Below are positions 7,716 to 37,737 of a stretch of DNA of 64,000 bases, one piece after another; the first letter of the stretch is position 1; every line of letters begins with the position of its first letter. The position numbers and the translations under genes were made by a program. This DNA comes from an uncultured Methanobrevibacter sp. GTDB lineage: Archaea > Methanobacteriota > Methanobacteria > Methanobacteriales > Methanobacteriaceae. The notes under the pieces were generated by a model. That model saw nothing but the letters and a program-made list of their open reading frames with translations. It made no database searches and had not been told where the DNA came from. The DNA lies in contig ONSJ01000001.1 of assembly GCA_900320515.1 (NCBI GenBank), positions 62,001 through 126,000 on the forward strand. Reading direction: 5' to 3'.

Positions 7716-8762
7716 ATGATGCATGATTATAATTTTGAAGAATATTTGAGAAAAACGCTATCCAACTCAATAAGCTCACAGAATCCTTCAGAAACTGCAA
7801 AAAATAAGGCAAGGAAACTATCTCCATCATATTATCAGGATTTGAAAGAAAAGCTTTTGATTGAATATGATAAGAAATCCTTGAAAGATGTAATGGACTG
7901 TAAAATATCCAAGACATCCTTTGGGGATGTGCTGAAAATAACAAAAAGGGAAAGGGTAGATTTTAATATTGAGGACAATGATTTCATGCATCAGATGAAC
8001 CGCAATTTGAAATTGCTGCCTAAAATAGGTCTGAAAACTGAGCAAAACCTTAAAAGCAAAGGTTATGACACGATAGAATCCCTCACAAATCATGACCGGT
8101 ATGGGGATTTGGCATCTGAGTTTTTACGAGATTTGGATGGGATGTCGTTTTGCGAAATCATTGACATGTTGGACGGTAACAGGTATTCAAAAAAATGCAG
8201 GGATAACGTAATCAAAAGCATCAGCCTGACGGATGAGAAAAACTTCAAGTTCATGGATATTGAGACAAAAGGATTGTCTAATGTTCCGATAATATTGATA
8301 GGTGTTGCTGAAATTAAGCAAAATAGCATTGAGGCATCTCAATATTTCCTGAGGGATTACACCGAAGAGGCAAGCATCATTGATGCCTACCTGTCTCATT
8401 TGGATGAGGATTCAATTCATGTGACATTCAATGGAAAAACTTTTGATGTACCTTTTATAAAAAATAGATGTAGATACAATAGGATTGATGCCGATTTGGA
8501 CTTGCCTCACCTTGACTTGATGTATTTTGCAAAAAATCTGTGGGGTGAAAAGCTGCCGAATTGCCAGCTGCAAACGATAGAAAAAGAATTGTTTGGAATA
8601 AATCGTGTTGGAGATGTTCCGGGACAATATATTCCCGGATATTATGATGCTTATTTAGAAGAAAATAATATAGGTCCCGTAGTGCCGATAATAGAGCACA
8701 ATGCCCAGGATATTATTTCACTTGCAAGCTTTTTAGATAAAATGTATAGGGATGTAAATTAA
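7716..8762 (+). CDS. YprB/MrfB-like RNase H-fold 3'-5' exonuclease
   Basis: 348 residues. The C-terminal half is an RNase H-like (PF13482, YprB type) exonuclease domain with DEDD residues visible: FMDIETKG near residue 180, HVTFNGKTFDVPFIKNR near 245, and HNAQDIISL near 330. The N-terminal half is probably a DNA-binding segment with a LPKIGLKTEQNLKSKGYDTIESL helix-hairpin-helix-like stretch. In Bacillus, MrfB (YprB) works with helicase MrfA (YprA) in repair of mitomycin C lesions; a MrfA-like helicase lies at 34879. Followed after 1 nt by the HEAT-repeat gene, so an operon. It lacks the repair-operon motif seen upstream of the other repair genes here. Confidence 0.8.
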   Translation: MMHDYNFEEYLRKTLSNSISSQNPSETAKNKARKLSPSYYQDLKEKLLIEYDKKSLKDVMDCKISKTSFGDVLKITKRERVDFNIEDNDFMHQMNRNLKLLPKIGLKTEQNLKSKGYDTIESLTNHDRYGDLASEFLRDLDGMSFCEIIDMLDGNRYSKKCRDNVIKSISLTDEKNFKFMDIETKGLSNVPIILIGVAEIKQNSIEASQYFLRDYTEEASIIDAYLSHLDEDSIHVTFNGKTFDVPFIKNRCRYNRIDADLDLPHLDLMYFAKNLWGEKLPNCQLQTIEKELFGINRVGDVPGQYIPGYYDAYLEENNIGPVVPIIEHNAQDIISLASFLDKMYRDVN

Positions 8763-8763
8763 A

Positions 8764-10284
8764 ATGGGATTATTTGACAGATTCAAGAAAAGCGATAACA
8801 AAAAAGAAAAACCCAAAAAGGAAGAGAAGGTAATTCCTGATGATTTGGAAATTGATGAGGATCAATTGGTTTTGAAGGACATAGCAATAAACAGCAAGGA
8901 CAGGTATGAAAGGGCGGCGGCCGCCGACCAGATTACCGACCAATATGTGGCTTTGGATTTGGCCAAAAACGTTAAGGACCGTGCAATCAGACTGATTGCA
9001 ATAAATAACGTTAAGGATGAGAGGCTTTTAAGGGATGCCGCTGAAAACTCCCAGTTTTTTGATGTGAGAAGCTTTGCATGGGAAAGGCTCGGCGAAAACA
9101 ACAAGTCAATTGCCGAAGTCGTAATCAATACAAAAAAGGGTCCGGAAGTTGATGAAATCTTTGAAAAGGTGGTTGATGAGGAAACCCTCAAATGGATTGC
9201 AATCGATGCGCAGGATAAACGATACAGAAATGCTGCCGTTGAAAAGATTGATGATGCCGATGTGTTGTATGACCTGGTCTTTAAGGCAAAGGACAAATCA
9301 ATCAGAAAGGCCTGTGTGGAAAAGGAAACATTCGTCAGTGAAGAGATGCTTCAAAAGGTGGTAATTGAGGATAATGACGAATCCGTTAAAATCGCTGCAG
9401 TCAAAAAGATTGAAGACGACAAATGTCTTGAAAACATTGCATTGAATGAGGACAACGCAAAAATAAGAACCCTGATTTTTGATAAGATTGATGATATAAA
9501 CATTTTAAGAGACATTGCCCTAAACTCCAAAAAAGCAGATGTGAGACTGGATTTGGTTAAAAAACTCGATGATGAGGATTTGCTGAAACAGATCGCCCTA
9601 AATGATTCAGACAAGATTGTCAGAAGCGAAGCCGTCAAAAAAATAACCGATGAAAAGGTTTTACTGGATGTCATTGCATCCGATGATGACAGGTTTGTCC
9701 GCCAGATTGCTGTTAAAAGCATTTCCAATCCAGATGACCTGGTTAAGATTGCTCTTGAGGATGATGATCAGTTTGTAAGAAATCATGCTATAACAAACCC
9801 TGCAATAACAAGTGAAGATGATTTTACGTATGTTGCAATCAATTCAACACATGAGGAGGTGGCTTTAGAAGCATTAAGCCACATCACTGAAGAGAAAAAT
9901 TTCATTGAAATTTTGAAAAATGCTAAATTGGATTCCATAAGCAAAGCCACTCTTGACAATATCGACGATTTGGAAACATTAATCAGGATTGTCCTTGCAA
10001 ATGAGGATGAAGAATTCTCCCTTAAGGCATTGAATAAAATCAAAGTCGAAAAATGCTTGTTTAAAATTTATGAACAGGGTATATCTGAAAATATCTCCGT
10101 CAGGGCGGTATCTTTAATCAAGAACCAGAAGATGCTGACAGACATTGCAAGAAATGCTTCAGCCTGGAGAATCCGTGAAGTCGCCGTTAAAAAGATAGTG
10201 AGTAAGAAAGTCCTGAAGGATATCTCACTGAATGATGAAAATGAATACGTAAGGGAAGTAGCCAAAAAGAGAATGAATCTATAA
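8764..10284 (+). CDS. HEAT-repeat-like scaffold protein
   Basis: 506 residues. After a lysine-rich N-terminus (FDRFKKSDNKKEKPKKEEK) the protein is a chain of about 18-20 degenerate repeats of roughly 22-25 residues, of the form L-x-x-I-A-L/I-N-x(4)-V-R-x-x-A-V-x-K-I-x-D-x-x-x-L, i.e. PBS-lyase/HEAT-like alpha solenoid. No catalytic motif is seen. Expected to bind proteins in the cytoplasm. Starts 1 nt after the YprB-like exonuclease stop, so the two are co-translated and possibly partners. Its end overlaps the convergent EFR1 gene by 6 bp. Confidence 0.8.
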   Translation: MGLFDRFKKSDNKKEKPKKEEKVIPDDLEIDEDQLVLKDIAINSKDRYERAAAADQITDQYVALDLAKNVKDRAIRLIAINNVKDERLLRDAAENSQFFDVRSFAWERLGENNKSIAEVVINTKKGPEVDEIFEKVVDEETLKWIAIDAQDKRYRNAAVEKIDDADVLYDLVFKAKDKSIRKACVEKETFVSEEMLQKVVIEDNDESVKIAAVKKIEDDKCLENIALNEDNAKIRTLIFDKIDDINILRDIALNSKKADVRLDLVKKLDDEDLLKQIALNDSDKIVRSEAVKKITDEKVLLDVIASDDDRFVRQIAVKSISNPDDLVKIALEDDDQFVRNHAITNPAITSEDDFTYVAINSTHEEVALEALSHITEEKNFIEILKNAKLDSISKATLDNIDDLETLIRIVLANEDEEFSLKALNKIKVEKCLFKIYEQGISENISVRAVSLIKNQKMLTDIARNASAWRIREVAVKKIVSKKVLKDISLNDENEYVREVAKKRMNL

Positions 10285-19608: not shown

Positions 19609-19645
19609 GATTAGTTTTCAAATGCTCTCTCATTTGATTTAAATA
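19609..19645 (+). promoter_or_regulatory. Repair-operon motif and TATA box upstream of nurA-herA
   Basis: 22-bp element at 19609-19630 (core TTTTCAAATGCTCTCT at 19615-19630), identical to the copy before mre11. After 7 nt comes TTTAAATA (19638-19645); the nurA ATG is at 19677. The element abuts the position of the BRE/TATA, where an activator or repressor would act. In this copy CAAATG is mirrored by CATTTG after six bases. Confidence 0.65.
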
Positions 19646-19676: not shown

Positions 19677-20750
19677 ATGTTAAATTCATTGTATGAAAAA
19701 GCCATCGCCAAAAGAGGATTCAAATTCGATATCGAACCGACAGCTGATATCGAATCCCAGCTGGAACATAAATGGTTTGACAGGACAATCGGCGAAAGCA
19801 AAGCCGACTTTTCGATTGCAGCAGGAGACGGAAGCTTCAACAAGAAGAAATTCCTCACCACCAATTTCTGCGCTGTCGGAGCGGAGTCCATAATTTACGA
19901 TGGCGAGATTAAAAAGATTGACGATTCGGATATTTTCGACATTCCGCATGTCTCATTTCTCGATGAGCTTTTAAGCAATTACATGGCAATATATGAGCTT
20001 AAATGCGCCCTGAGAACTCTGAATGATTATGATGTTGACTATTACATGTTTGACGGCTCCATTCTTGGAGACCTGCAGAACGCATTTCCAAGAGGAGCGA
20101 AACTGCCTTCAAAGCTTAAGGAACACATGGACGATTCGCTGCTTGAGGAATTTCGCTCAAGGCTTAAGGTCAGGCATTACGGGCTGCTGTTTCCGGATAT
20201 CAGGGACGGCTTCAAGCTGATGGAGATGCCCAAAAGCGATGATACAAACATCATCAACGAAACCAACCTCCATCTTGCATCAGTTGAGAAAATCATTCTT
20301 TTATATGAGATTCTGCAGTTCAGAAAAAGAATCATTTCAATCTCCAAGACCTCATCGGACAATGATCTGTTCCATTGGAACATTCCGGACATTGCATTCC
20401 TTGACAAGTTCACAAAAAAGCAGGGAATGACATTCATAAAGTACAGGCAGGTTCACGATAATGCCGCATTTCCGTATTTCAATGACTTTTTCAAGAGTCT
20501 GACATTTACGGTATTTTATGTTCGCCTGCAGGACAACAAGAATATATTGAAGGTTGAACTGCCTTACAGGGCAACAAAGGAAGAGGTTTTTGAAATAATA
20601 AGAAAGATAAACGTATTGTCTGTCCAGGGTTATCCTTACCTTTTGAACAAGGCCCACAATGACGTGGTGATAACCGATAGGAACATGAAAGAATTGATGA
20701 AAATAGCTAAGATTTACGAGACAACAAACAGGGAAGTGATGTCATGGTAG
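19677..20750 (+). CDS. nurA: NurA 5'-3' DNA nuclease
   Basis: 357 residues. The NurA nuclease core is visible: FSIAAGDGSFNKKKF (metal-binding Asp in DGS) near residue 48, YYMFDGSILGDL near 125, and HDNAAFPYFNDFF near 265. Works with HerA and Mre11-Rad50 to resect DNA ends for homologous recombination. Its last codons overlap the herA start, so the two are translationally coupled, the standard archaeal arrangement. Under the repair-operon motif at 19609. Confidence 0.93.
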   Translation: MLNSLYEKAIAKRGFKFDIEPTADIESQLEHKWFDRTIGESKADFSIAAGDGSFNKKKFLTTNFCAVGAESIIYDGEIKKIDDSDIFDIPHVSFLDELLSNYMAIYELKCALRTLNDYDVDYYMFDGSILGDLQNAFPRGAKLPSKLKEHMDDSLLEEFRSRLKVRHYGLLFPDIRDGFKLMEMPKSDDTNIINETNLHLASVEKIILLYEILQFRKRIISISKTSSDNDLFHWNIPDIAFLDKFTKKQGMTFIKYRQVHDNAAFPYFNDFFKSLTFTVFYVRLQDNKNILKVELPYRATKEEVFEIIRKINVLSVQGYPYLLNKAHNDVVITDRNMKELMKIAKIYETTNREVMSW

Positions 20751-22246
20751 TGGGAATCTGCGTAGGAGAAACTAATTTAAACGAAGTAACATTCATCTCA
20801 AATGAAATGCCACAGGTTGGCCAATATGTAACAATTGAATATGACGGAAAAAAGGTATTGGGAATGGTTGAAAATCTGGTCAGGGGAAACGATGCACTGA
20901 ATGTTGACATAAACGACTTCAAGGCAATCCAGAAAATCTCCAGGATAGGCGTTGAGGACAACTACATCAGGGGCAAGGTCAAAATCCTTGGAGATGTCAA
21001 TGACGATTTGAGGATTCCAAGAACACCTGTGCTTCCCGGAACGGAAATCAATCTCGCCGATGCGGACATGCTCAATGAAATATTCAATGTGAAAAATCCG
21101 ATAAGGCTCGGAACACTGGTCAACCAGAATGAAGTTGAGGTCAATGTCGATGCAAACCCGATACTCTCAAGGCACATGGCGATTCTTGCGATGACAGGAG
21201 CGGGAAAGTCAAACACAGTATCCGTATTGATTGACCAGCTTCTCTCATACAACGTGCCCGTGTTTGTATTTGACATGCACGGCGAGTATAAGGGTGCCGA
21301 ATTTCCAAACGGCAATGTCAATGTGATAAGGCCTAAAATCAACCCTACCTACATGTCTTTTCTTGAAATCAAAAAACTCGTAAACATTCCGGCAAACGCA
21401 TATCTTCAGGAGCGCTATTTCAGAAAGGCATTCAGGGAGGCTAAAAAGCAGGTTGAAGATGGAACCACCCAGGAAAAGAACTTTCTGCAGCTGATGTACA
21501 ATATTCTTGAAGTTGAATCTCTCGATGAAGAATCAGACAAGAGGATAGTGGATGTCATGAACAAGATTGACGATTCCATGGACAAGTACTCAAACCTGTT
21601 CGACCAGTATACCGGCAACATATTGTCCAGCATCAAAAAGGCTCATGTGAATGTCCTTGATTTGTCTCAGGTTGACGAATATGTTGCAAGCGTGCTTGTA
21701 AGCCATATCCTGAGAAATTCACTTAACCGCTCCAAAAAGGCGGCCCACAGCGGAAACAGGGACGAGCTGCTTGAAAACTCTGTATTCTATATTCTGGAAG
21801 AGGCTCATATTCTGGCTCCAAACAAGCGTGACAGCGATTCCAAACGCTGGATTCAAAGGGTTGCAAGAGAAGGGCGTAAGTTCGGATTGGGCCTGTGCCT
21901 TGTAAGCCAGTCCCCGAAAACGGTTGACCATGATGCCCTCTCACAGATGAACAACATGATTATATTGAGGCTTGTCGAGCCTGAAGACCAGAGGCATGTC
22001 CAGTCAGCAAGCGAAAGCCTTTCACAGGATTTGATCAATCAGCTTCCATCCTTGAATGTTGGGGAGGCCATCGTATTGGGTCTTATGTCTAAAGTGCCTA
22101 CTCTCGTTAAGATTGACAAGTTCCAGGGCAGAACTCACGGTGATGACATGGATATCGTGTCTTTCTTTAAGGATTCTCTGAAAAAGGAAGTTGAAGAGAT
22201 TGAAAGGCAGGAAGATGAGTTGATGGATATGGGGTATGATTACTAA
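20744..22246 (+). CDS. herA: HerA DNA translocase/helicase
   Basis: 500 residues, usual for archaeal HerA. N-terminal HAS-barrel (VGICVGETNLNEVTFISNEMPQVGQYV), then the FtsK-HerA ATPase core with Walker A MTGAGKSN near residues 150-157, VFVFDMHGEYKG, Walker B YILEEAHIL near 350, and a VAREGRKFGLGLCLVSQSP sensor segment. Hexameric bipolar translocase that feeds DNA to NurA during end resection. Overlaps nurA by 7 bp. Confidence 0.95.
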   Translation: MVVGICVGETNLNEVTFISNEMPQVGQYVTIEYDGKKVLGMVENLVRGNDALNVDINDFKAIQKISRIGVEDNYIRGKVKILGDVNDDLRIPRTPVLPGTEINLADADMLNEIFNVKNPIRLGTLVNQNEVEVNVDANPILSRHMAILAMTGAGKSNTVSVLIDQLLSYNVPVFVFDMHGEYKGAEFPNGNVNVIRPKINPTYMSFLEIKKLVNIPANAYLQERYFRKAFREAKKQVEDGTTQEKNFLQLMYNILEVESLDEESDKRIVDVMNKIDDSMDKYSNLFDQYTGNILSSIKKAHVNVLDLSQVDEYVASVLVSHILRNSLNRSKKAAHSGNRDELLENSVFYILEEAHILAPNKRDSDSKRWIQRVAREGRKFGLGLCLVSQSPKTVDHDALSQMNNMIILRLVEPEDQRHVQSASESLSQDLINQLPSLNVGEAIVLGLMSKVPTLVKIDKFQGRTHGDDMDIVSFFKDSLKKEVEEIERQEDELMDMGYDY

Positions 22247-22310: not shown

Positions 22311-22348
22311 GATTAGTTTTCAAATGCTCTCTTGGCAAACTATTAAAT
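22311..22348 (+). promoter_or_regulatory. Repair-operon motif and TATA-like box upstream of mre11-rad50
   Basis: 22-bp element at 22311-22332, identical to the nurA copy (the identity extends two bases further upstream). TATTAAAT follows after 8 nt (22341-22348). The mre11 ATG lies at 22435, so the leader would be about 60 nt; a second TATA-like TTATATAC nearer the gene (around 22403) means two promoters are possible. Confidence 0.6.
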
Positions 22349-22434: not shown

Positions 22435-23676
22435 ATGAAATTTGCACATTTGGCAGACACTCATTTAGGTTACCGTCAATACGGATTGTTTGAACGGGAA
22501 AAGGACTTTTATGAAGTGTTTGATAAGGTTATTGACAAAATAATTGAAGAAAAAGTAGATTTTGTAATACATAGTGGCGACTTATTTGAAACCGCAAGAC
22601 CTTCACCTATGGCACTTTTGACCTTTCAAAAAGGTTTGCTTAAGCTGAAAGGTGCAGGAATACCTATGTATGCAATAGCAGGAAACCATGATGTGGTGAT
22701 GAGAAAGGGCTCCATACCTCCACATGTTATTTTTAAGAAGATGGGACTTAAGGTCATAAGCACTATCAATCCTATCTATATGCACGGAGACATATTTATA
22801 GCGGGCCTTCCTTACTATCCGGCATCACACGGAAAGGCTCTGAAGAGCAAGCTGGCCGATTTGTCCAAAAAGGCAGGCAATCATGAAAAGTCAATTCTGG
22901 TTCTTCACCAGGGAATCGACAAGTATTTCAGCATCAATTATGAATTGGAGATTGGTGAGATACCTGATAACTTCGATTATTACGCCCTCGGTCATATTCA
23001 CAAATATGTCAATGATGCTTACGGTAAAGGAAGACTTGTTTATCCGGGTTCTGCTGAAATCTGGAAGACATCCGAATTGCCTGATTATAAGAAGAATGGA
23101 AAGGGCTTTGTCGTGGTTGATTTTGACGGTTCAAAGCCTGTCGTAAAGAGGGTCACTGTCGATGTTCCACGTGAATTCATCGAAAAAACCATTGAATATA
23201 ACGATTTGGAAAGCGGCATTGCAAGCATCAAGGAAATCATCAAGGGATTTGACAAAAAGCCGATATTAAAAATAACCATCAGGGATGTTGAATCGGATAC
23301 CAGCAGAGTATATGAAATCATAAAAGAGGAGCTGGGGGATTTGGCTTTGATGATAAGACCTACCTTTGTAATGGCCGGTGAGGAGATTGAGCTTATTGAA
23401 GTGGAATCCAAAAGATTGGGTCCGGAACAGCTTCTGGAAAGTCAGCTTGAAGGATATGGCAACAGCGAGGTCACAACCCTTGCCGTCGATTTGTATCATC
23501 TGCTTTCAAAGGAAAAGCTTGATGAGTCACAGGAGCTGATCAATCAGTACTTCGATGACCATTATTCCAATGAAGGTGAGGATTCCGAATTCAGGACTGA
23601 AGATTTGCAAATCGAAAGACCTCCAAGGAAAAAAGATGATGTGCAGGTAACATTTGGAAAGGAGGTTGAAGAATGA
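22435..23676 (+). CDS. mre11: Mre11 DNA double-strand break repair nuclease
   Basis: 413 residues. Calcineurin-like phosphoesterase motifs in order: LADTHLGY (Asp8, His10), HSGDLFE, AGNHDVV, VLHQG, and GHIHKY. The C-terminal capping domain is followed by an acidic tail (ERPPRKKDDVQVTFGKEVEE) that should contact Rad50. Mn-dependent nuclease that processes broken DNA ends. GAAGGTAAT precedes the ATG. Stop overlaps the rad50 start by 4 bp. Confidence 0.95.
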   Translation: MKFAHLADTHLGYRQYGLFEREKDFYEVFDKVIDKIIEEKVDFVIHSGDLFETARPSPMALLTFQKGLLKLKGAGIPMYAIAGNHDVVMRKGSIPPHVIFKKMGLKVISTINPIYMHGDIFIAGLPYYPASHGKALKSKLADLSKKAGNHEKSILVLHQGIDKYFSINYELEIGEIPDNFDYYALGHIHKYVNDAYGKGRLVYPGSAEIWKTSELPDYKKNGKGFVVVDFDGSKPVVKRVTVDVPREFIEKTIEYNDLESGIASIKEIIKGFDKKPILKITIRDVESDTSRVYEIIKEELGDLALMIRPTFVMAGEEIELIEVESKRLGPEQLLESQLEGYGNSEVTTLAVDLYHLLSKEKLDESQELINQYFDDHYSNEGEDSEFRTEDLQIERPPRKKDDVQVTFGKEVEE

Positions 23677-26420
23677 TTTTCACAAGATTAAAATTAAACA
23701 ATTTCAAATCACACGAGCATACCGTAATTACTTTTGATAAGGGAATCAGCGTAATTGTAGGTGAGAACGGTGCGGGAAAATCAACAATCCTTGAAGCGAT
23801 AAGCTTCGCCCTATTCAAACAGCACACAGCCAAAAAGATTGATGATCTGGTCAGAAACAATGCAAATTCCATGTCCATAGAACTGGAATTCACTTCCAAT
23901 AACAGGGATTACAAGATTGTTCGCGAAAAAAAATCCGCCTTGAAATCATCCCTGTTTAAAAGGACATCTTCAGAAGGGGGATATGTGCATGTCTGCACCG
24001 GAGATAAGGAAGTTGCCGGTGAAATTCGCCAAATCCTGGATATCGATTCAGACCTCTTCCTCAATGCAATCTATATCAGGCAGGGGGAAATTGCAGAATT
24101 GGTTGACAAGACTCCTGCTGAGAAAAAACAGCTGATTGGAAAATTGCTGGGAATAGACTCTTTGGAAAAGGCATGGAAGAATTTATTGCCTTTCATAACC
24201 GATTATGAATCTCAGCTTGCCGAACTTAAAGGTAAGCTCTATAATTCCGAAGAGCTGATGGAAAATTATAACAAGAAAAAGGATGAACTGGAAAGCCTTA
24301 AGGATAGGGGCCATGAACTCGAAGAGCAGATTGATGAAGTCGATGGATTGCTCAAAGATATTTCTGAAAGCAAGCGTAATATGGAGCGTGAAAAGGAAAT
24401 CTATGAAACACAAATAAACAATTTGGAAATTGAAGAAAAAACATTTGCCAAATTGGAAGATGAAAAGCGTGTTGTTCAAGAGGAATTGGATAAAATCCGT
24501 GAAGCTGAAGAGGAAATCGACAGATTGGAAAAATTCGTTTCCAAACTTGATGTTTATCTTGACTTTGAAAAATCTGTTACAAGCATTCAAAAACTCAAAG
24601 AGGACGAGAACGAAATTGAAGATAAATTGGATTCAATTGCCGAGCAAAAGGAAATCGTTTCAACCAAAAAAGAAGGATATAACAATTACCTTTTATCCGA
24701 TGAGGAAATCAACAGGTTGTCTGACCAAAAGAATAACCTTGAAAAGGAATTGGCTACAATGGCCAAGCTTGAAAAGGATAAGAAGGAATTGTTGAAAAGC
24801 ATTGAGGATGAAAGGAATGACATCGACAAGTTCTTCTCAAAATCCAAGGATAATCTGGATGATTATGGATTGAACCAAGATATATTGGCCAAAATAGATG
24901 ATTTCAGCCATCTTGAAAGTTCCACTAATGATTTCATCAATGAGACTTCCGAGAAGATTGACGAATTGGGCAAGGAAATCATCGCAAAAAATGAGGATAT
25001 TGTCGTATACAATCAGAATATCAAGGCATGCCAGAAACCTTTGGATGATCTGGAAGGAATCGACAACAAATGTCCTGTTTGCCAGTCAGATATCAGTTCC
25101 TATAAGAAAACCGAATTGACAAAGCATTACACTGATGAGATTAATGAAAACAAAAAACTCATTGCCCAAAATGAAGAGGCTGTTCGTCTATTGAACAAGA
25201 ACAAGAACAGTTTTGAAGAGAAGCTTCAAAAACTCACGGAATTGTCCAAAAGCATCATTGAGTACAGGCAGAAATTTGAGCATCTTCAAAATGAACTTAT
25301 CAGATTGAACAAGATGGATGAGGACTTGGAAGGTAAGGAGTACATTAGCAATAAGCTCGGCGAGCTCATTCTGCTCATTGCCACTAAAAAGGAAGAACGT
25401 GAATCATTCAAAGAGGATCATGATTCCTACATTCAATCCAAGGGAGCCCTGGAAGTTTTAGGCAGTGAAACTGAAATCCAATACAAGTTGAAGCAGGTTC
25501 AAAATGAAATTGACAATCACGTAACTAACATTAAATTGGCCATAAATCAGGACCCTCATTTAAGTGGGGATATGGGTCCTAATGAACTTAAAAGTCGTAT
25601 TGAGGATTTAAAGAAGAAAAATGAAGAATTCAACCAATTGAAAGGTTTTGTTCAAAATAAAAATTCATTCATGACTCGATTGGATTCCATTAAAGAGGAT
25701 ATCGGTGTTTCAATCAATCAAAAGGACATCATTGAAAACAAAATCAAGGCATCGCTATACGATGAGGAAAAATACGAACAGATTCTCTATAATTTTGAAC
25801 GCTATGAAAGAAGGAAGAACACTTTCAATGAAGAGCTTTTCGAGATTAAAGGAAGGGCAAAGGAATCAATTGTAAGCCTTCAGGATTTGACCGACAAGAT
25901 TAAGATGGCATCCCAGTTCAGACAGGAATATGATAACATAGATGAGTATATAGGCATCCTTAAGCATATCCGTGAGCTGTACAGCCGTGGAGGTATTCAA
26001 AAGGATTTAAGAAATATCTCACGTCCGGCCATACAGAAACACACCAAGGAATACTTCAAGGAGTTCAATTTCAACTACTCTGATTTGACAATTGATGATG
26101 ATTATGAAGTGACCGTTTATGGTCCTGAAGGGGAATCATCAATGAGCATGGTCAGCGGCGGTGAAAAGATTGCAATTGCACTTGCATTGAGATTGGGTAT
26201 TACTCAGGCAATGGCCAATGGTGAATTGGACACCATTTTATTGGATGAGCCTACAATTCATTTGGACGCTTCAAGAAAGCACGAACTGATCAATCTGTTA
26301 AAGGAGATGTCTTCACTTCCTCAAATGATTATAGTAACTCACGAAGCCCAGCTTGAAAATGCTGCTGAAAATCTGATAAAAGTCGAAAAAGAGAATGGTA
26401 TTTCAAAAGTAATAATGTAG
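23673..26420 (+). CDS. rad50: Rad50 DNA repair ATPase
   Basis: 915 residues. N-terminal Walker A GENGAGKST near residue 32, YIRQGEIAELVD Q-loop near 133, long coiled coils (about 180-440 and 490-730), the zinc hook CPVC at 467-470, then the ABC signature SMVSGGEKIAIALALRLG and Walker B ILLDEPTIHLD, with a final VTHEAQLENAAE His switch. SMC-like partner of Mre11 that tethers and senses DNA ends. The coding end carries a hairpin whose loop contains the stop codon. Confidence 0.97.
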   Translation: MIFTRLKLNNFKSHEHTVITFDKGISVIVGENGAGKSTILEAISFALFKQHTAKKIDDLVRNNANSMSIELEFTSNNRDYKIVREKKSALKSSLFKRTSSEGGYVHVCTGDKEVAGEIRQILDIDSDLFLNAIYIRQGEIAELVDKTPAEKKQLIGKLLGIDSLEKAWKNLLPFITDYESQLAELKGKLYNSEELMENYNKKKDELESLKDRGHELEEQIDEVDGLLKDISESKRNMEREKEIYETQINNLEIEEKTFAKLEDEKRVVQEELDKIREAEEEIDRLEKFVSKLDVYLDFEKSVTSIQKLKEDENEIEDKLDSIAEQKEIVSTKKEGYNNYLLSDEEINRLSDQKNNLEKELATMAKLEKDKKELLKSIEDERNDIDKFFSKSKDNLDDYGLNQDILAKIDDFSHLESSTNDFINETSEKIDELGKEIIAKNEDIVVYNQNIKACQKPLDDLEGIDNKCPVCQSDISSYKKTELTKHYTDEINENKKLIAQNEEAVRLLNKNKNSFEEKLQKLTELSKSIIEYRQKFEHLQNELIRLNKMDEDLEGKEYISNKLGELILLIATKKEERESFKEDHDSYIQSKGALEVLGSETEIQYKLKQVQNEIDNHVTNIKLAINQDPHLSGDMGPNELKSRIEDLKKKNEEFNQLKGFVQNKNSFMTRLDSIKEDIGVSINQKDIIENKIKASLYDEEKYEQILYNFERYERRKNTFNEELFEIKGRAKESIVSLQDLTDKIKMASQFRQEYDNIDEYIGILKHIRELYSRGGIQKDLRNISRPAIQKHTKEYFKEFNFNYSDLTIDDDYEVTVYGPEGESSMSMVSGGEKIAIALALRLGITQAMANGELDTILLDEPTIHLDASRKHELINLLKEMSSLPQMIIVTHEAQLENAAENLIKVEKENGISKVIM

Positions 26421-30848: not shown

Positions 30849-32078
30849 TCATGGAATTTTAATATCTTTTGTTTTAACACTGTTATTTTTACAGAATGTT
30901 CTAAAATCACATGCATTGCATGTTCTCTCATCAGAATCAGCTTTCCATGCTTCCTGAATCTTGCAACCTTTTATTTCTTTAATTAGAGAGCTTTCAATTT
31001 TAAAAACAACATTGTCAAATTTATTAAGTGAATCCTCAATCTCTTCATTGTTAATATTGATTATGCGTATTGACCTTGCAATCTTGAACTCATCGCTTAG
31101 ATTTGGCGCCTTGTCGTCTTCCGTCCAGTTCATAATCAAATCAACATCATCTGCGAATTTGGCATAGTCTATTGCATTGTCTGTCAGGTCATGTGCGATT
31201 TCGTCCTGAATCAAAACAAGGTCCTCCTTAGATGGGACAAGCTCATTTAAATAGAAGATTATTCCCGCAAAAATCGGTTTTGCATCTTCCTGCTGGCTTC
31301 TAAGCCAGGAATATGTCAGGATTTGCTGCTTATGATTTTCCCAGGGGTTGTTGAATTTGTTGTCGCTCTTTTCGGGAGGCCTTTTCATTCCCTTGTAGTC
31401 GATTATGATTTCGTATTCGTCGCTTTCTGAATGGGAAATCTTTTGGCGAAATTCAGGGTCTTTTTTAAGAAATTCAATGATTTTATTGTTGTAGTTGTCC
31501 AGATTGCTTTGACTGATGTTCCTGTTGATTTTCATGGAGCTCAATACATCCACAACACCATTGATTCCATAATAATTTGATCGGCTAATCTTTTCGTCAT
31601 AATTCGGCATGTTCCTGATGCCCTTTATCAGAAGTTCAGTGGAATCAATCAGGGGAAAGAGATGAGGTCCCCAAACATTAATGGCCCTTTCAGCCCTTGC
31701 ACTGGCCAGTTTCTTATGGTCATGCTCGTTTAAATCCTCAAATCTTAGTTCGCTGTTTAACAGACTGTAAAACAGGTCTTCATCATAAGGATAAAGCCCG
31801 TCCACTTGAAGCCTTATGTCAATCATGTCTTCTATCGGGCGGATGTCATTTTTCCAGTTCCACGGAAATTGCTTCTTGTCGGAATCCCATTGAAGATATG
31901 CCTCTTCCATCACTCCATGAATGAACTCTCCAAACCATCTCTGAACCGGTTTTGAAGGTGGGAGGGTTCCCTTGTTCTGGTATCTGTATTGCAGATTGCA
32001 TGTTAAAAATGACAGCAAATCTCCGGTTAGGCTGTATTCCGGAATCATGTATGACTTTGATCTTGACGGTAATTTCAT
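30849..32078 (-). CDS. RecB/Cas4-family PD-(D/E)XK nuclease with Fe-S cysteines
   Basis: 409 residues. The nuclease core EIIIDYKGMKRP (Asp and Lys of D-x-K) is near residue 220, with upstream acidic positions. A 4Fe-4S-type arrangement is visible: Cys in LLSFLTCNLQYRYQ near residue 26 and CNACDFRTFC near the C-terminus, as in Cas4 and AddB nucleases. Probably cleaves single strands produced by the adjacent UvrD-like helicase. Starts 10 nt downstream of the helicase stop with AGGAGAT before its ATG, so the two form one operon under the repair motif at 34588. Confidence 0.85.
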   Translation of the reverse strand: MKLPSRSKSYMIPEYSLTGDLLSFLTCNLQYRYQNKGTLPPSKPVQRWFGEFIHGVMEEAYLQWDSDKKQFPWNWKNDIRPIEDMIDIRLQVDGLYPYDEDLFYSLLNSELRFEDLNEHDHKKLASARAERAINVWGPHLFPLIDSTELLIKGIRNMPNYDEKISRSNYYGINGVVDVLSSMKINRNISQSNLDNYNNKIIEFLKKDPEFRQKISHSESDEYEIIIDYKGMKRPPEKSDNKFNNPWENHKQQILTYSWLRSQQEDAKPIFAGIIFYLNELVPSKEDLVLIQDEIAHDLTDNAIDYAKFADDVDLIMNWTEDDKAPNLSDEFKIARSIRIININNEEIEDSLNKFDNVVFKIESSLIKEIKGCKIQEAWKADSDERTCNACDFRTFCKNNSVKTKDIKIP

Positions 32079-32088
32079 TTTTTATCTC

Positions 32089-34527
32089 CTATATCAGGTA
32101 AATCTCATTAAATCCAATATATTTTTCATCTCTGCTCCATCCGAGTGCAACATTTGGAATGTTGAAGTGCTTCTTCTTATGAGGATATCCTTCGATTGCG
32201 GAGTTTAGCCCAACCAGCAGCAGAACGCTTTCCGCCCTTGAAAATGCAACGAAATAAAGGCGGGTCAAGTCATCGAATGACCTGTCCTTTTCGCTTCTTT
32301 CGGACTCTCCAAGTTCACTGAACTGCCTTATGCTGTCCTCGATTGTAATGTTTTTAGGCGGCTTTTTTGGAAATCTCAATTTCTGTGTTTTTATGTTGTT
32401 GTCCCTGAATTTGGAGCCAACATCCACAATGACCAGCGGAAATTCCAGTCCCTTTGACTGATGAATCGATAATATGTTCACTCTATCGTCTGGAAGGGTT
32501 TCAAGAAGGGACTCGTCAATCTGTATTCCTCCGGTTGCAAGAGGTATGAATATGTTCCATATGGCTTCAAGAATGGATTCCTTCTCGGCCTGCCTGTTTG
32601 CAAATGATATGTGTGAGTAATACTTGCTGAAAAATCCAGTTTGTGTAATTGATTTGGTAATCGCTTCCAGGTAAACTATTCCTTCGGCATCCTCCTGCAG
32701 CTCTTCAATCCATGTGATGAGCTTATATGCAAGTTCCATCAGGCTGGCCTTTTTGGGCCAGTATTTTGTTCCTCTAGGCACCCTATTCTGCCAGTATAAT
32801 ACAAACTGGCTTAGATTTATAGGCTCATGCGGTTCGGGATTAAGTTTGACATATTCCCTTGCCCTCACTCTCCATCTAGTCATTGTAACTTTCGCCAGAT
32901 TCGGGATGGTCTTGTCGCTCAGCTGGATTTTGCCTTCAGGGTCTATGCACTCAAGTATCAGTCCGCAGAATATCTCAACAATTTCGACCTTTTGAAGCTC
33001 GATTCCCCTTGGATTGAACACTTCAATCGGTTTTCTTTGCTTTTTGAGATTTCTTCTAAGATAATACAATAATGAATTGTTGCCGAATTGCTTTTCCTTT
33101 GGGGAATAGGACAGTATTGCAATGTCGGACGCCGAACCTGACTCGCTGTCCAATTTAAGGGTCAGTCTTTCAATATGTTTTCCTTCCCTTTCCCGCTCGG
33201 CATTGAGCTGCTGCAATCTTGCAATATCTATATCGCCATCGACCTGCTTGAAATATTCCTCATCAAGCACCTTCAGGACTTTTGGCCTGACTTCGCCTTC
33301 GTTGATCAGTTTTGCAATAAGGTTGGACAGTGACTTTGAAAGCATTTCAACATTGTTTCTAAACATTCCAAGAACAGGCATCCGGTCCTTGTCAAAATCG
33401 GGAGCTATGATTTTTGGCTTGTTCTTAACCCTTGCCATCTGGTATTCGTCATCTATTTCAACAAACTGGTTGCAGTGATTGATGATGTTTTCCGTTGAGC
33501 GGTAGTTTGTTTTCAGATTAATTTCCAAAACGTCAATGCCCAGTTTGTCCCTGACCCTTTGCTTGTAGTTGGTGAACAGATCCACTGTCGCTCCTCTGAA
33601 CCTGTAAAGGGACTGGTCATCATCGCCTACAACGGTAATGTTTCCGTTATTCTTCAATGCTGATTGGGCAATGGTGAAGTAGATGTCTTCCTGAATCAGG
33701 TTTGTGTCCTGGTATTCATCCACCAAAACGATTCTGATGGTATCGAGAAACATGTCAAGCCTGTTTTCCTTAAGCAATTTCAGGAATCTGGATTCAAGCA
33801 TTGCGAAGTCCATGGTGTTTCTTCTAATCAGTATGTTTTCATACTCCTGTATGCAGTCGAGGATTAGGGTCATGCCCCTGTCGTTTTCATATTCCTCGTA
33901 TAATCTGTCCATATCGATCTGGTCATGGAAAATCCTGTCCTTGATTTCAAGCAGTATTCCGCTCATCTTTGACGGTTCATCCAGTTTTTCCTTGCCGGTC
34001 AGTCTTTTGAGGCATTCTTTTAAGTTCTCGTCCTTGTATCTTTCATTTTCGCTGAGTATCTTTATCATAGCTGAGTTTGAAACGAAGTTTTCAATTATGA
34101 TTGGATGGTTTGTACCGGGTTCCTTGTGCTGCCTCATGATCTCTTCGGCCAGCTTGTCGGTTGTGCCGACCTGAATCTGATTGAAATCAATTCTGGCTAT
34201 CTTTTCAAAGATTTCAAAATCATCCGATCCGTCAATGATATGGTTTTTGATTTCATCTCCCCATCCCAAAATCCTTGAATATAATTCTTCAGCGGCCTTT
34301 TTGGTGAATGTTGTTGCCAATATTTCATTTGGATTGATGTCATCGACAAAAATGAATTTCAGTATTTTCAGCACCATTACGGTGGTTTTGCCGCTTCCGG
34401 GGCCTGCAACTAAGAACAGTGATTGGTTTGGTTGAGAGAAGATTGCATTTTTCTGGTCTTCGTTTGAAGAGATGTCCCTTTCAAGAACATTAACTACAAT
34501 TTCTTCAAATTCTTCATTTGAAATCAT
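32089..34527 (-). CDS. UvrD/AddA-like superfamily 1 helicase
   Basis: 812 residues. SF1A motifs in order: Q-motif region SSNEDQKNAIF, Walker A AGPGSGKT at 41-48, FTKKAAEEL, VLVDEYQDTN (Walker B), VVGDDDQSLYRFRGA, NYRSTENII, ILSIHQSKGLEFPLVIV, and YVAFSRAESVLLL (motif VI). Translocates 3'-5' on DNA. Paired with a Cas4/RecB-type nuclease as in bacterial AddAB; inference: a DNA end-processing complex. GAGGG lies upstream of the ATG. Promoter: repair motif at 34588-34609 (minus) plus TTTATAAA 7 nt beyond. Confidence 0.92.
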   Translation of the reverse strand: MISNEEFEEIVVNVLERDISSNEDQKNAIFSQPNQSLFLVAGPGSGKTTVMVLKILKFIFVDDINPNEILATTFTKKAAEELYSRILGWGDEIKNHIIDGSDDFEIFEKIARIDFNQIQVGTTDKLAEEIMRQHKEPGTNHPIIIENFVSNSAMIKILSENERYKDENLKECLKRLTGKEKLDEPSKMSGILLEIKDRIFHDQIDMDRLYEEYENDRGMTLILDCIQEYENILIRRNTMDFAMLESRFLKLLKENRLDMFLDTIRIVLVDEYQDTNLIQEDIYFTIAQSALKNNGNITVVGDDDQSLYRFRGATVDLFTNYKQRVRDKLGIDVLEINLKTNYRSTENIINHCNQFVEIDDEYQMARVKNKPKIIAPDFDKDRMPVLGMFRNNVEMLSKSLSNLIAKLINEGEVRPKVLKVLDEEYFKQVDGDIDIARLQQLNAEREREGKHIERLTLKLDSESGSASDIAILSYSPKEKQFGNNSLLYYLRRNLKKQRKPIEVFNPRGIELQKVEIVEIFCGLILECIDPEGKIQLSDKTIPNLAKVTMTRWRVRAREYVKLNPEPHEPINLSQFVLYWQNRVPRGTKYWPKKASLMELAYKLITWIEELQEDAEGIVYLEAITKSITQTGFFSKYYSHISFANRQAEKESILEAIWNIFIPLATGGIQIDESLLETLPDDRVNILSIHQSKGLEFPLVIVDVGSKFRDNNIKTQKLRFPKKPPKNITIEDSIRQFSELGESERSEKDRSFDDLTRLYFVAFSRAESVLLLVGLNSAIEGYPHKKKHFNIPNVALGWSRDEKYIGFNEIYLI

Positions 34528-34572: not shown

Positions 34573-34609
34573 TTTATAAAGTAATTGAGAGAGCATTTGC
34601 AAACTAATC
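34573..34609 (-). promoter_or_regulatory. Repair-operon motif and TATA box upstream of the uvrD-like/recB-like operon
   Basis: On the minus strand, 22-bp element at 34609-34588, differing from the nurA/mre11 copies at one base (G for T in TTTGCAAATGCTCTCT). After 7 nt comes TTTATAAA (34580-34573); the helicase ATG is at 34527. Confidence 0.65.
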
Positions 34610-34782: not shown

Positions 34783-34820
34783 TATTACTTTTCAAATGCT
34801 CTCTGATTAATCTTTTATAT
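34783..34820 (+). promoter_or_regulatory. Repair-operon motif and TATA box upstream of the MrfA-like helicase
   Basis: Element at 34783-34804; the 16-base core TTTTCAAATGCTCTCT is identical to the nurA and mre11 copies, with two differences in the 5' six bases. TTTTATAT follows after 8 nt (34813-34820); the helicase ATG is at 34879. Confidence 0.65.
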
Positions 34821-34878
34821 TGCCATGATTAAAAATATAATTTAATAATGTAATTGGAACTGAAATTTGGCTGATATT

Positions 34879-37737
34879 ATGTCTGATGTGGAAAATATTG
34901 ATATGTTTAAAAATGATGTGAGATACAGGGAAAATATTGCCCATATCGAGACAATACCTGCTAAAAAGGCAAGTTTCAAAAAAGTGGATAATTTAAATGA
35001 AAGGATTATTGATTATCTTTCATCAAAGCAGGTAAAGCTATACAAACACCAGGCAGACACATATGAAGCAATTAAGGATGGCGAAAACGTAATCATCACA
35101 ACCCCTACCGCTTCAGGCAAGACATTGGCATTCAATCTGCCGATAATGGAGACAATGATTGAGGACAGCGATGCCACTGCGCTTTATATTTATCCTGCAA
35201 AGGCACTTTCCAACGACCAGCTGCATGTTCTTGAGGGCCTTGAAAATGAACTGGACATTAAAATCCGCCCAAGAACCTATGACGGGGACACTCCAAGGGA
35301 TGACAAAAGGGGGATTCGTGAAAAATCAAGAATCGTTTTGACCAATCCGTATCAGCTGCATCTGATATTGTCATGGCATCACCAGTGGTCAAGATTCTAT
35401 AAAAACCTGAGATACATAGTCATTGACGAATCACATTACTATAAGGGCGTATTCGGTTCCAATGTGGCATTTCTGATTAAAAGACTGAAGAGAATAGCCA
35501 ATTTTTACGGGTCATATCCTCAATTTATTTTATCTTCGGCAACCCTTGCAAACCCTCTGGAGCTGGCAAACAGACTTACAGGCGAAGAGTTTGTTCTAGT
35601 CGACAATGACTCCTCCCCGAGCGGCGAAAAGGATTTCATCTTATACAACCCGTTCAAGAATTATGTGAGAAAAAAGGTCAACACTCAAAATGCCCCTTCG
35701 GTGCATATGGAAACGGAAAACATATTCATGTACATGATGCTTAAAAACATCCAGACATTATGTTTCACCGTTTCAAGAAAAACCACCGAACTGATTGCAA
35801 TGTGGGCCAAAAAGGACATGACCCAGATTAAAGGACAGCTGGCCCATAGGATTGCGGCTTACCGTGCAGGATATCAGGCGGCTGAAAGGCGTGAGATTGA
35901 AGAGGGCCTCAAAAGCGGAAAATACTTGGGTGTGACATGTACCAATGCACTTGAACTGGGAATAAATATAGGGTCCCTTGATGCGGTCATCATTTCAGGA
36001 TATCCCGGCACCATGATTTCCACATGGCAGCAGGCCGGAAGGGCTGGAAGAAGCAATCAGAAATCTCTTGCATTATTGATTGCCTTTGAAAACCAGCTTG
36101 ACCAGTATTTCATGAACAATCCGAAGTTCTTTTTCGACAAGCCTCATGAAAATGCCATTATCGATTTGACTAATCCGATTCTTCAGGAAGCCCACCTTTT
36201 ATGCGCAGCCAAGGAACTTCCTCTTCAAAGGGGAGAGGCGGAAAAATACTTCGACATTTCACAGGACGTGATAGACGAGCTGGTCTTAAGGAAGGATTTG
36301 CATGAAAACCATAAGGGTGATTTCATATATCCATATGATGACCATCCCGCAATGGACCATTCCCTTGACCAGATTTCCTCTGAAGAGTTCAAGGTAATGA
36401 ACAATGGAGCATTGCTTGAAACCATGGAACGTTCACAGGTTTATCGCGAAGCCCATGAAGGCGCCATCCTAATTAACAAGGGAGATACCTATGTTGTAAA
36501 TAGCGTTAACCTGAAAAACGGTTTTGTCAACGTTTCAAAGGAAGCCGTCGATTATCATACAATGGTTTTAAACCAGACAGAAATCAGTATCAAAAAGAAA
36601 TTGTCAAAAACCAAATACGGCAGGCTGACCATACATTTCGGTGAGCTGACTGTAAGCGAAGATTACTTCAAATATAAAAAGATGCAGTTTTCAAAGGCAA
36701 TAGGAACCTATCCTCTTGAATTGCCACCTTTGAAATTCAATACCAAGGGATTATGGTTTACAATACCAAAACAGGTAAAGGACACTCTAGAAGACATGTT
36801 TCCAAATGAGGAGGAAGTGTTTGCTGGAGGCCTTCACGGGGCCGAACACGCATTGATCGGACTCTTTCCACTGCATACCATGTGCGACAGGTTCGACATT
36901 GGAGGCTTGTCCACCAATTACCACGAGGATACTCAAGAGGCAACAATATTTATCTATGACGGTTATGAAGGAGGAATAGGAATCTGTGAAAAGGCTGTTG
37001 AGGTCTTTGTTGAGCTTTTGAATTCAACTATTGACTTATTGAATAATTGCCAATGCCAAAGCGGATGTCCTGCCTGCATATATTCCCCTAAATGTGGAAA
37101 CGATAACAAGCCACTGCACAAAAACGCAACAAAGTATATCCTGGAATACATGTCCAAACTGATATCAAAGGATGATGAGGAAGTGGAAGGCGAGATAATC
37201 ATTGAAAACGAGGTAATTCCGGATGAGTTTGATGAGGCTTATGAATTGTATGAAAAAGGGGATTATTCCTCATCAAAGGATGTCTTGAACAGTATCCTGG
37301 CCAATGACAAGAAACACTCAAGGGCGCTTGCACTTATGGCTCAGATATTATATGAACAGGACCAAAAGGATATCGCATTGCTTTTTACCAGAAAGGCATT
37401 GTCCTGTGACAGGTCAAATCTGATGGCCAACGAGCTTGAGGTATTGCTTACAAGCAAGCCTCAAAAGCAGGAGGTCGAATTAAGCTCCCTGGATGATATT
37501 GACACATTATATGAGGAAGCCTATGATTTGTATGAGCAGGGGGACCTTGCAACATCATCTGAAATATTGGAAAAGCTCCTTGATTTTGATGATAAACACT
37601 CGGAAGCCCTTGCACTGATGGGACTTATTTATTATCAATCAGGAATGTTTCCAAAAGCCATTGAGTATTATAAGAGGGCTTCAAAAATAAATAAGAATGG
37701 TGAAATGGTTCGTGAATTGAAGATGAGGGTGGCCTAA
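34879..37737 (+). CDS. MrfA/YprA-like DEAD/DEAH-box helicase with C-terminal TPR
   Basis: 952 residues from ATG 34879 (an in-frame TTG at 34867 sits within the GGCTGAT ribosome binding site). SF2 motifs: TPTASGKT at 75-82, VIDESHYY near 182, ILSSATLANP, and TNALELGINIGSLDAVIISGYPGTMISTWQQAGRAGR. The C-terminal MZB/DUF1998 zinc site is CQCQSGCPACIYSPKCG near 724-740. After about residue 775 come two TPR blocks (DEAYELYEKGDYSSSKDVLNSIL and EEAYDLYEQGDLATSSEILEKLL). Bacillus MrfA repairs mitomycin adducts with MrfB; in that system the TPR belongs to MrfB. Under the repair motif. Confidence 0.9.
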   Translation: MSDVENIDMFKNDVRYRENIAHIETIPAKKASFKKVDNLNERIIDYLSSKQVKLYKHQADTYEAIKDGENVIITTPTASGKTLAFNLPIMETMIEDSDATALYIYPAKALSNDQLHVLEGLENELDIKIRPRTYDGDTPRDDKRGIREKSRIVLTNPYQLHLILSWHHQWSRFYKNLRYIVIDESHYYKGVFGSNVAFLIKRLKRIANFYGSYPQFILSSATLANPLELANRLTGEEFVLVDNDSSPSGEKDFILYNPFKNYVRKKVNTQNAPSVHMETENIFMYMMLKNIQTLCFTVSRKTTELIAMWAKKDMTQIKGQLAHRIAAYRAGYQAAERREIEEGLKSGKYLGVTCTNALELGINIGSLDAVIISGYPGTMISTWQQAGRAGRSNQKSLALLIAFENQLDQYFMNNPKFFFDKPHENAIIDLTNPILQEAHLLCAAKELPLQRGEAEKYFDISQDVIDELVLRKDLHENHKGDFIYPYDDHPAMDHSLDQISSEEFKVMNNGALLETMERSQVYREAHEGAILINKGDTYVVNSVNLKNGFVNVSKEAVDYHTMVLNQTEISIKKKLSKTKYGRLTIHFGELTVSEDYFKYKKMQFSKAIGTYPLELPPLKFNTKGLWFTIPKQVKDTLEDMFPNEEEVFAGGLHGAEHALIGLFPLHTMCDRFDIGGLSTNYHEDTQEATIFIYDGYEGGIGICEKAVEVFVELLNSTIDLLNNCQCQSGCPACIYSPKCGNDNKPLHKNATKYILEYMSKLISKDDEEVEGEIIIENEVIPDEFDEAYELYEKGDYSSSKDVLNSILANDKKHSRALALMAQILYEQDQKDIALLFTRKALSCDRSNLMANELEVLLTSKPQKQEVELSSLDDIDTLYEEAYDLYEQGDLATSSEILEKLLDFDDKHSEALALMGLIYYQSGMFPKAIEYYKRASKINKNGEMVRELKMRVA

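Follow-up and report, generated by a model that had tools for sequence, protein, structure and literature searches.

The window, by which we mean the whole 64,000-nucleotide stretch of DNA analysed here, encodes a SF2 helicase of the MrfA/YprA type with a C-terminal TPR extension, a MrfB-type DEDDh exonuclease followed by a HEAT-repeat protein, and several DNA-repair genes preceded by copies of a shared promoter element (Table 1).

Table 1. Features of the window considered in this study
Feature	Coordinates	Strand	Remarks
MrfB-type DEDDh exonuclease	7716..8762	+	348 aa; without TPR; HhH-like helical region before the exonuclease domain
HEAT-repeat protein	8764..10284	+	begins one base past the MrfB stop; pair kept in nearly the whole genus
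Promoter element CAAATGCTCTCT	19619..19630	+	upstream of NurA-HerA operon (19677-22246)
Promoter element CAAATGCTCTCT	22321..22332	+	upstream of Mre11-Rad50 (22435-26420)
PD-(D/E)XK (RecB/Cas4-like) nuclease	30849..32078	-	in the operon of the UvrD-like helicase
UvrD-like SF1 helicase	32089..34527	-	divergent neighbour of MrfA
Promoter element CAAATGCTCTCT	34588..34599	-	faces the divergent UvrD-like operon
Promoter element CAAATGCTCTCT (core of ATTACTTTTCAAATGCTCTCT)	34793..34804	+	faces MrfA; TTG start 74 bp downstream
MrfA/YprA-type SF2 helicase with C-terminal TPR extension	34879..37737	+	952 aa; ATG start; in-frame TTG at 34867
MrfA core, aa 12-736	34912..37086	+	RecA1, RecA2, winged helix, OB-like barrel, MZB Zn domain
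TPR block 1, aa 782-858	37222..37452	+	read as two TPR motifs and a capping helix; 38% identity to block 2; predicted helices 783-858, pLDDT 81-94
TPR block 2, aa 871-951	37489..37731	+	read as two TPR motifs and a capping helix; Pfam match; predicted helices 871-951, pLDDT 80-96

Identification of the helicase and the exonuclease

In profile searches the helicase matched TIGR03817 with 731 bits, a score below the cut-off of that model (874), together with the DEAD (109 bits), Helicase_C (52 bits) and HRQ1 winged helix domains, and an MZB/MrfA-Zn domain was recovered over residues 655-734 with 84.6 bits. Its Walker and DEAH-type motifs are intact (TPTASGKT and DESH), the motor columns S79, G80, K81, D183 and E184 are invariant, and so are the zinc cysteines C724, C726, C730 and C733 in 63 sequences. 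Of the solved structures, B. subtilis YprA/MrfA is closest to it in sequence (6znp; 482 bits over residues 12-736). An AlphaFold prediction based on 63 homologues (mean pLDDT 88) likewise retrieved MrfA structures as all four of its top PDB matches (TM-score 0.77-0.84 by target length), with B. subtilis MrfA at Foldseek rank 1 (E 7e-63). Among the matches listed, the named database neighbours at 88-91% identity are from Methanobrevibacter. The protein is thus a genuine MrfA/YprA helicase, for which a 3'-5' DNA helicase activity and a role in mitomycin repair are predicted by analogy. The source genome (85% complete) has a single protein with MZB and a single one with a strong RNase_H_2 match.

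The latter protein, with an RNase_H_2 score of 128 bits, is closest among solved structures to MrfB (8un9), in sequence (82 bits) as well as in fold (rank 1, E 2.8e-9). Its complete set of DEDDh residues, D181, E183, D244, H328 and D332, corresponds to D107, E109, D172, H258 and D262 of B. subtilis MrfB (PMC11194089); no substitution occurs at the first three positions among 51 homologues, and conservation at the other two is at least 90%. Assignment to another exonuclease family was ruled out by the top rank of 8un9 in both comparisons and by the complete DEDDh set, and the protein is a genuine MrfB-type DEDDh exonuclease. No TPR was detected in it by the domain search, and in the model the chain stops at the nuclease fold. 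The HEAT-repeat gene lies directly 3' of the exonuclease gene in 21 of 22 distinct loci of the genus examined; its product is encoded in 46/48 genus genomes, and elsewhere only remote homologues occur, in two genera. It is a possible helical scaffold for the TPR-less MrfB.

The initial annotation had described the helicase as YprA/MrfA with two C-terminal TPR blocks, and the exonuclease as a YprB/MrfB-like protein free of TPR and separated from it by 26 kb, all of which our searches bear out. The distance is 26.1 kb and is not peculiar to this genome: in all 19 genus genomes where a single contig carries both genes, and the distance was thus measurable, the pair is split by 25-46 kb (median 27 kb), with MrfB upstream of MrfA on the same strand in each of them. 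The usual adjacency of the two genes, which is common but not required, is therefore absent in the window, whereas it is present in most other genera. Adjacent pairs in Methanobacteriales have the order MrfA then MrfB (27/27; some loci overlap and not all are independent); outside the order, among the matches listed, MrfB precedes MrfA in 31/31 pairs of neighbouring ORFs, again with some overlapping loci that are not all independent.

The C-terminal TPR extension of MrfA

The last ~170 residues of the helicase make up two TPR pairs. Pfam TPR_19 (residues 884-947; 41.3 bits against a cut-off of 25, E 2e-10) and TPR_2 (residues 909-940; 42.1 bits against a cut-off of 27, E 6e-11) were both matched above their gathering scores in the second block, and the first (residues 782-857) received no Pfam TPR call by itself. 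The two blocks are 38% identical over 72 residues, and AlphaFold predicts each of them as a five-helix bundle, mostly with pLDDT 80-96, on either side of a low-confidence linker (860-868); we read each bundle, on the basis of the model, as two TPR motifs with a cap. Because the Pfam scores, the identity between the blocks and the confident five-helix bundles agree, a chance repeat or low-complexity sequence can be ruled out as the source of the TPR signal.

Of the 116 genomes in the phylum that are at least 85% complete, 112 encode MrfA. TPR-like tails, extending 104-237 aa past the Zn cluster, occur in three Methanobacteriales families, and all tailed MrfAs of these families can be aligned over their last TPR pair. 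The tail is absent from three genera (g2, which includes M. curvatus, g3 and g4), where it seems to have been lost. Within the window's genus some species carry one block (866-886 aa) and most carry two (about 955 aa); since some species have a single block only, we read the two-block form, from the sequences, as a local duplication. In Methanobrevibacter cuticularis and a relative (L078, L082) the Zn domain is separated from the TPR by a long, repetitive linker rich in Asn (NDKINKGINVNDKIN..., NNKINNKINN...).

The wide variation in linker length and repeat number, along with at least three losses, would be expected of a degenerate or neutral extension without function. This is very unlikely to be the nature of the tail, as its last TPR pair can be recognised in all three families, close relatives share 81-96% identity over the whole protein including the tail, and the predicted fold is confident.

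In most related genera the TPR-bearing mrfA adjoins a TPR-less mrfB, from which it follows that MrfA had acquired its TPR before the two genes were split. Tail and MrfB occur independently of each other. In family f2, represented by four genomes that are each at least 94% complete, the TPR is retained and MrfB is missing: the ORF downstream of MrfA, a candidate for a MrfB-like gene, turned out to encode a PBP-type solute-binding protein; conversely, genera g4 and g2 retain MrfB without the TPR. Because of this uncoupling the tail probably serves a partner other than MrfB alone. Genus g3 (e.g. L079-L081) speaks against this reading: its MrfA, at about 48% identity, is divergent and lacks the tail, and no member of the genus sample has MrfB, so that TPR and MrfB are absent together, as a link between the two would predict.

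MrfA and MrfB outside Methanobacteriales

We searched 84,980 species genomes for the exact motif CIYSPKCGN, which gave at least 120 loci; these exact matches, with a partial survey of Halobacteriota, form our outgroup sample, and some archaeal groups fall outside it. We took from it 75 MrfAs whose C-terminus could be read and which carried no name from Methanobacteriales. Among the matches listed, 74 of the 75 end in tails of 27-53 aa and thus have no TPR tail; the exception, with a tail of 191 aa, comes from a horse-faeces archaeon, is 65% identical, and has a tail that looks like that of Methanobacteriaceae. The MrfBs adjoining these outgroup MrfAs extend 1-12 residues past the exonuclease domain among the matches listed, the single longer one being a frame-broken ORF, and no Pfam TPR was found in the four MrfBs and three MrfAs that were checked.

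These data bear directly on the proposal of the initial annotation that the TPR of the usual partner had been fused onto the helicase in a domain swap. On that account an ancestral MrfB TPR moved to archaeal MrfA and was then lost from MrfB. B. subtilis MrfB does possess a C-terminal three-repeat TPR (PMC11194089), the window MrfB has none, and the confinement of TPR to one partner gives a complementary pattern. However, among the matches listed, MrfBs encoded beside MrfA have no C-terminal TPR in Bathyarchaeota, Methanomicrobiales, Methanocella-like lineages and Methanofastidiosum, nor in Asgard-type archaea, Bipolaricaulota, Actinomycetota and Spirochaetota, so the donor state that a swap calls for was not found, and with it no TPR on the partner that could have moved. 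Moreover, the TPR is a promiscuous repeat, and the MrfAs of a second archaeal group acquired one separately (see below). We consider a swap most improbable. The search of both proteins did place the TPR on the helicase and none on the exonuclease, as expected, but TPR on MrfB is not the state from which archaea departed: because it is also absent from the other archaeal and bacterial homologues sampled, the C-terminal three-repeat TPR marks the Bacillus form of MrfB and does not define the family. The premise that the MrfB TPR provides the contact with MrfA is not supported either, as two-hybrid data from B. subtilis place this contact on the exonuclease core of MrfB and not on its TPR (PMC11194089). 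What stands of the suggested archaeal version of the system is the pair itself, with the assignment to the mitomycin repair pathway plausible.

A separate gain of TPR in Halobacteriota

TPR-like C-terminal repeats were also found in 11 MrfAs from Halobacteriota (L264-L266, L268-L275), which constitute a distinct subfamily with the motif IQSPKCGN and 37-39% identity, and to which we give the inferred name Methanosarcinales-type. A maximum likelihood tree of the core, with the tails left out, places them apart from the Methanobacteriales proteins. Forcing all TPR-bearing MrfAs into one clade costs 649 log units, and a single origin is rejected by the AU test (p 1e-6), figures that come from a quick tree with some long branches. 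The TPR tail of the Methanosarcinales-type MrfAs is thus of separate origin.

Three Halobacteriota MrfAs that are sister to the TPR-bearing ones (L262, L263, L267) have another conserved tail of about 180 aa (TFIATDENGG..SAPSPEKAAAKTF), which does not look like TPR. We found no MrfB in Halobacteriota genomes with a tailed MrfA, only a RNase_H_2 relative of ~250-305 aa. These compact proteins (L280, L282-L302), from Halobacteriota with TPR-tailed or related MrfAs, have a HhH-like N-terminus and a last motif, YNxED, which reads as DEDDy-like; they are possible counterparts of MrfB.

The repeated gain invites the explanation that MrfAB benefits from a TPR surface in general and that lineages attached one separately to either subunit, to MrfB in Bacillus, and to MrfA in Methanobacteriales and again in the Methanosarcinales-type Halobacteriota. 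According to the tree, archaeal MrfA gained a TPR separately at least twice; the TPR of Bacillus MrfB comes in addition, and in both archaeal groups the repeats occupy the same position, C-terminal past the Zn domain. Such an equivalence nonetheless strikes us as unlikely: no TPR occurs on either protein in 74/74 sampled MrfAs of other lineages, many with an adjacent MrfB, among the matches listed; several Methanobacteriaceae have lost the tail; and the Halobacteriota with a MrfA TPR carry only the short DEDDy-like relative of MrfB.

A promoter element shared with DNA-repair genes

The sequence CAAATGCTCTCT occurs in four copies with zero mismatches in the window and in 21 exact copies in the genome, against 0 for a reversed control. 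Copies are present in 44/49 genomes of the genus, and the control had 0 matches in every one. The longer element reads ATTASTTTTCAAATGCTCTCT, followed at a nearly fixed distance by a TATA-like TTTAWATA. Further genes behind it (loci L304-L324) encode TopoVI-B, Hjc, the RFC small subunit, Hel308, Hef and RPA, as well as a DinG/XPD-like helicase and a radical-SAM DNA-modification/repair protein. We therefore regard the ATTASTTTTCAAATGCTCTCT element as defining a candidate archaeal DNA-repair regulon; if it is damage-responsive, it would be a candidate SOS-like regulon of archaea. Our literature search found no published description of it, and the sole archaeal motif of this kind that we met there is the hexanucleotide of UV-inducible promoters in Sulfolobus (PMC5817253). 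The element is of more interest than the TPR tail itself.

Four copies (L304, L306, L309, L316) lie upstream of genes whose translations are TnpB-like (IS200/IS605-type), and a fifth (L318), cut by a contig end, has flanks nearly as those of L309; TnpB-like mobile elements thus seem to carry the promoter of the repair regulon.

Upstream of MrfB nothing above chance was found, in agreement with the earlier statement that the exonuclease operon is not under the motif that precedes MrfA. Most of the genus retains the copy in front of the UvrD-like gene; the MrfA-facing one is retained only in the window's relatives. It might be argued from this arrangement that MrfA of the genus acts independently of MrfB and together with a nuclease from the repair regulon, such as the divergent UvrD-like/PD-(D/E)XK pair, and that the TPR links it to that machinery. 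The split of the pair throughout the genus, the promoter element on MrfA and not on MrfB in the window's subclade, and the location of MrfB with the HEAT-repeat gene instead would all fit. We find this doubtful, as MrfB is kept with an intact active site in nearly all complete genomes of the genus, the MrfA-facing element is absent from most of the genus while the UvrD-like-facing one is widely kept, and neighbourhood does not equal interaction.

A model for the TPR-bearing MrfA

The explanation we favour, and hold to be somewhat better than an even bet as a whole, is an archaeal MrfA-MrfB pair in which TPR was gained once on MrfA and docks another protein. By analogy with Bacillus, MrfA, as a 3'-5' SF2 helicase, would open the DNA at the site of a bulky or cross-link lesion, and MrfB, a DEDDh 3'-5' exonuclease made from a separate locus, would then remove the damaged strand; the kind of lesion, the cooperation of the two enzymes in archaea and the identity of the TPR ligand are what we infer here. 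The array would have been gained in the ancestor of Methanobacteriales, with mrfA and mrfB then still neighbours, and would afterwards have grown or shrunk through block duplication in the window species and loss in three genera. It is most likely a protein-docking arm that links MrfA to another repair or replication protein, and would be neither a module derived from MrfB nor strictly a MrfB contact, although MrfB may be one of its ligands in genera that have both. A bolder extension, which we judge quite unlikely, would treat the TPR as a third, movable unit of MrfAB that recruits the same kind of partner from either the helicase or the exonuclease, with the window's genus having further uncoupled the two enzymes, MrfA to the repair promoter element and MrfB to the HEAT-repeat scaffold.

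Comparison with known systems

The window MrfA resembles B. subtilis MrfA (YprA; 6znp/6znq/6zns) in domain order through the Zn domain, but has ~215 extra residues past the Zn cluster, with two TPR pairs, and is encoded away from MrfB. Similarly, the window MrfB shares with B. subtilis MrfB (YprB; 8un9) the DEDDh core and a long N-terminal part before beta-1; it differs in having no C-terminal TPR, in the HhH-like region before the exonuclease, and in adjoining a HEAT-repeat gene rather than mrfA. The YprA-family defence helicases (DISARM DrmA/B, Dpd, Druantia, ARMADA; PMC12458937) have the family core with DUF1998/MZB in common with the window MrfA, which, unlike them, lies in no defence operon and has a repair-type MrfA as its best match. 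In the text of that study as we read it, no TPR fusions to MrfA are described, and we found no paper describing a MrfA with TPR.

The Methanosarcinales-type MrfAs of Halobacteriota have a C-terminal TPR tail, as the window protein does; they have no adjacent MrfB, and form the separate IQSPKCGN subfamily. The MrfAB pairs of Bathycorpusculum, Methanoregula, Methanofastidiosum, Bipolaricaulota and others have, among the matches listed, both enzymes encoded by neighbouring genes and TPR on neither protein. The TPR tail of MrfA is, in modest terms, a lineage-specific variant of a known repair pair, and its repeated gain in archaea points to a protein contact. These comparisons correct an inference drawn from one model organism, in that TPR on MrfB is not the general state, and show that the pair known from Bacillus, MrfA/MrfB, occurs widely in archaea, where its accessory architecture is different.
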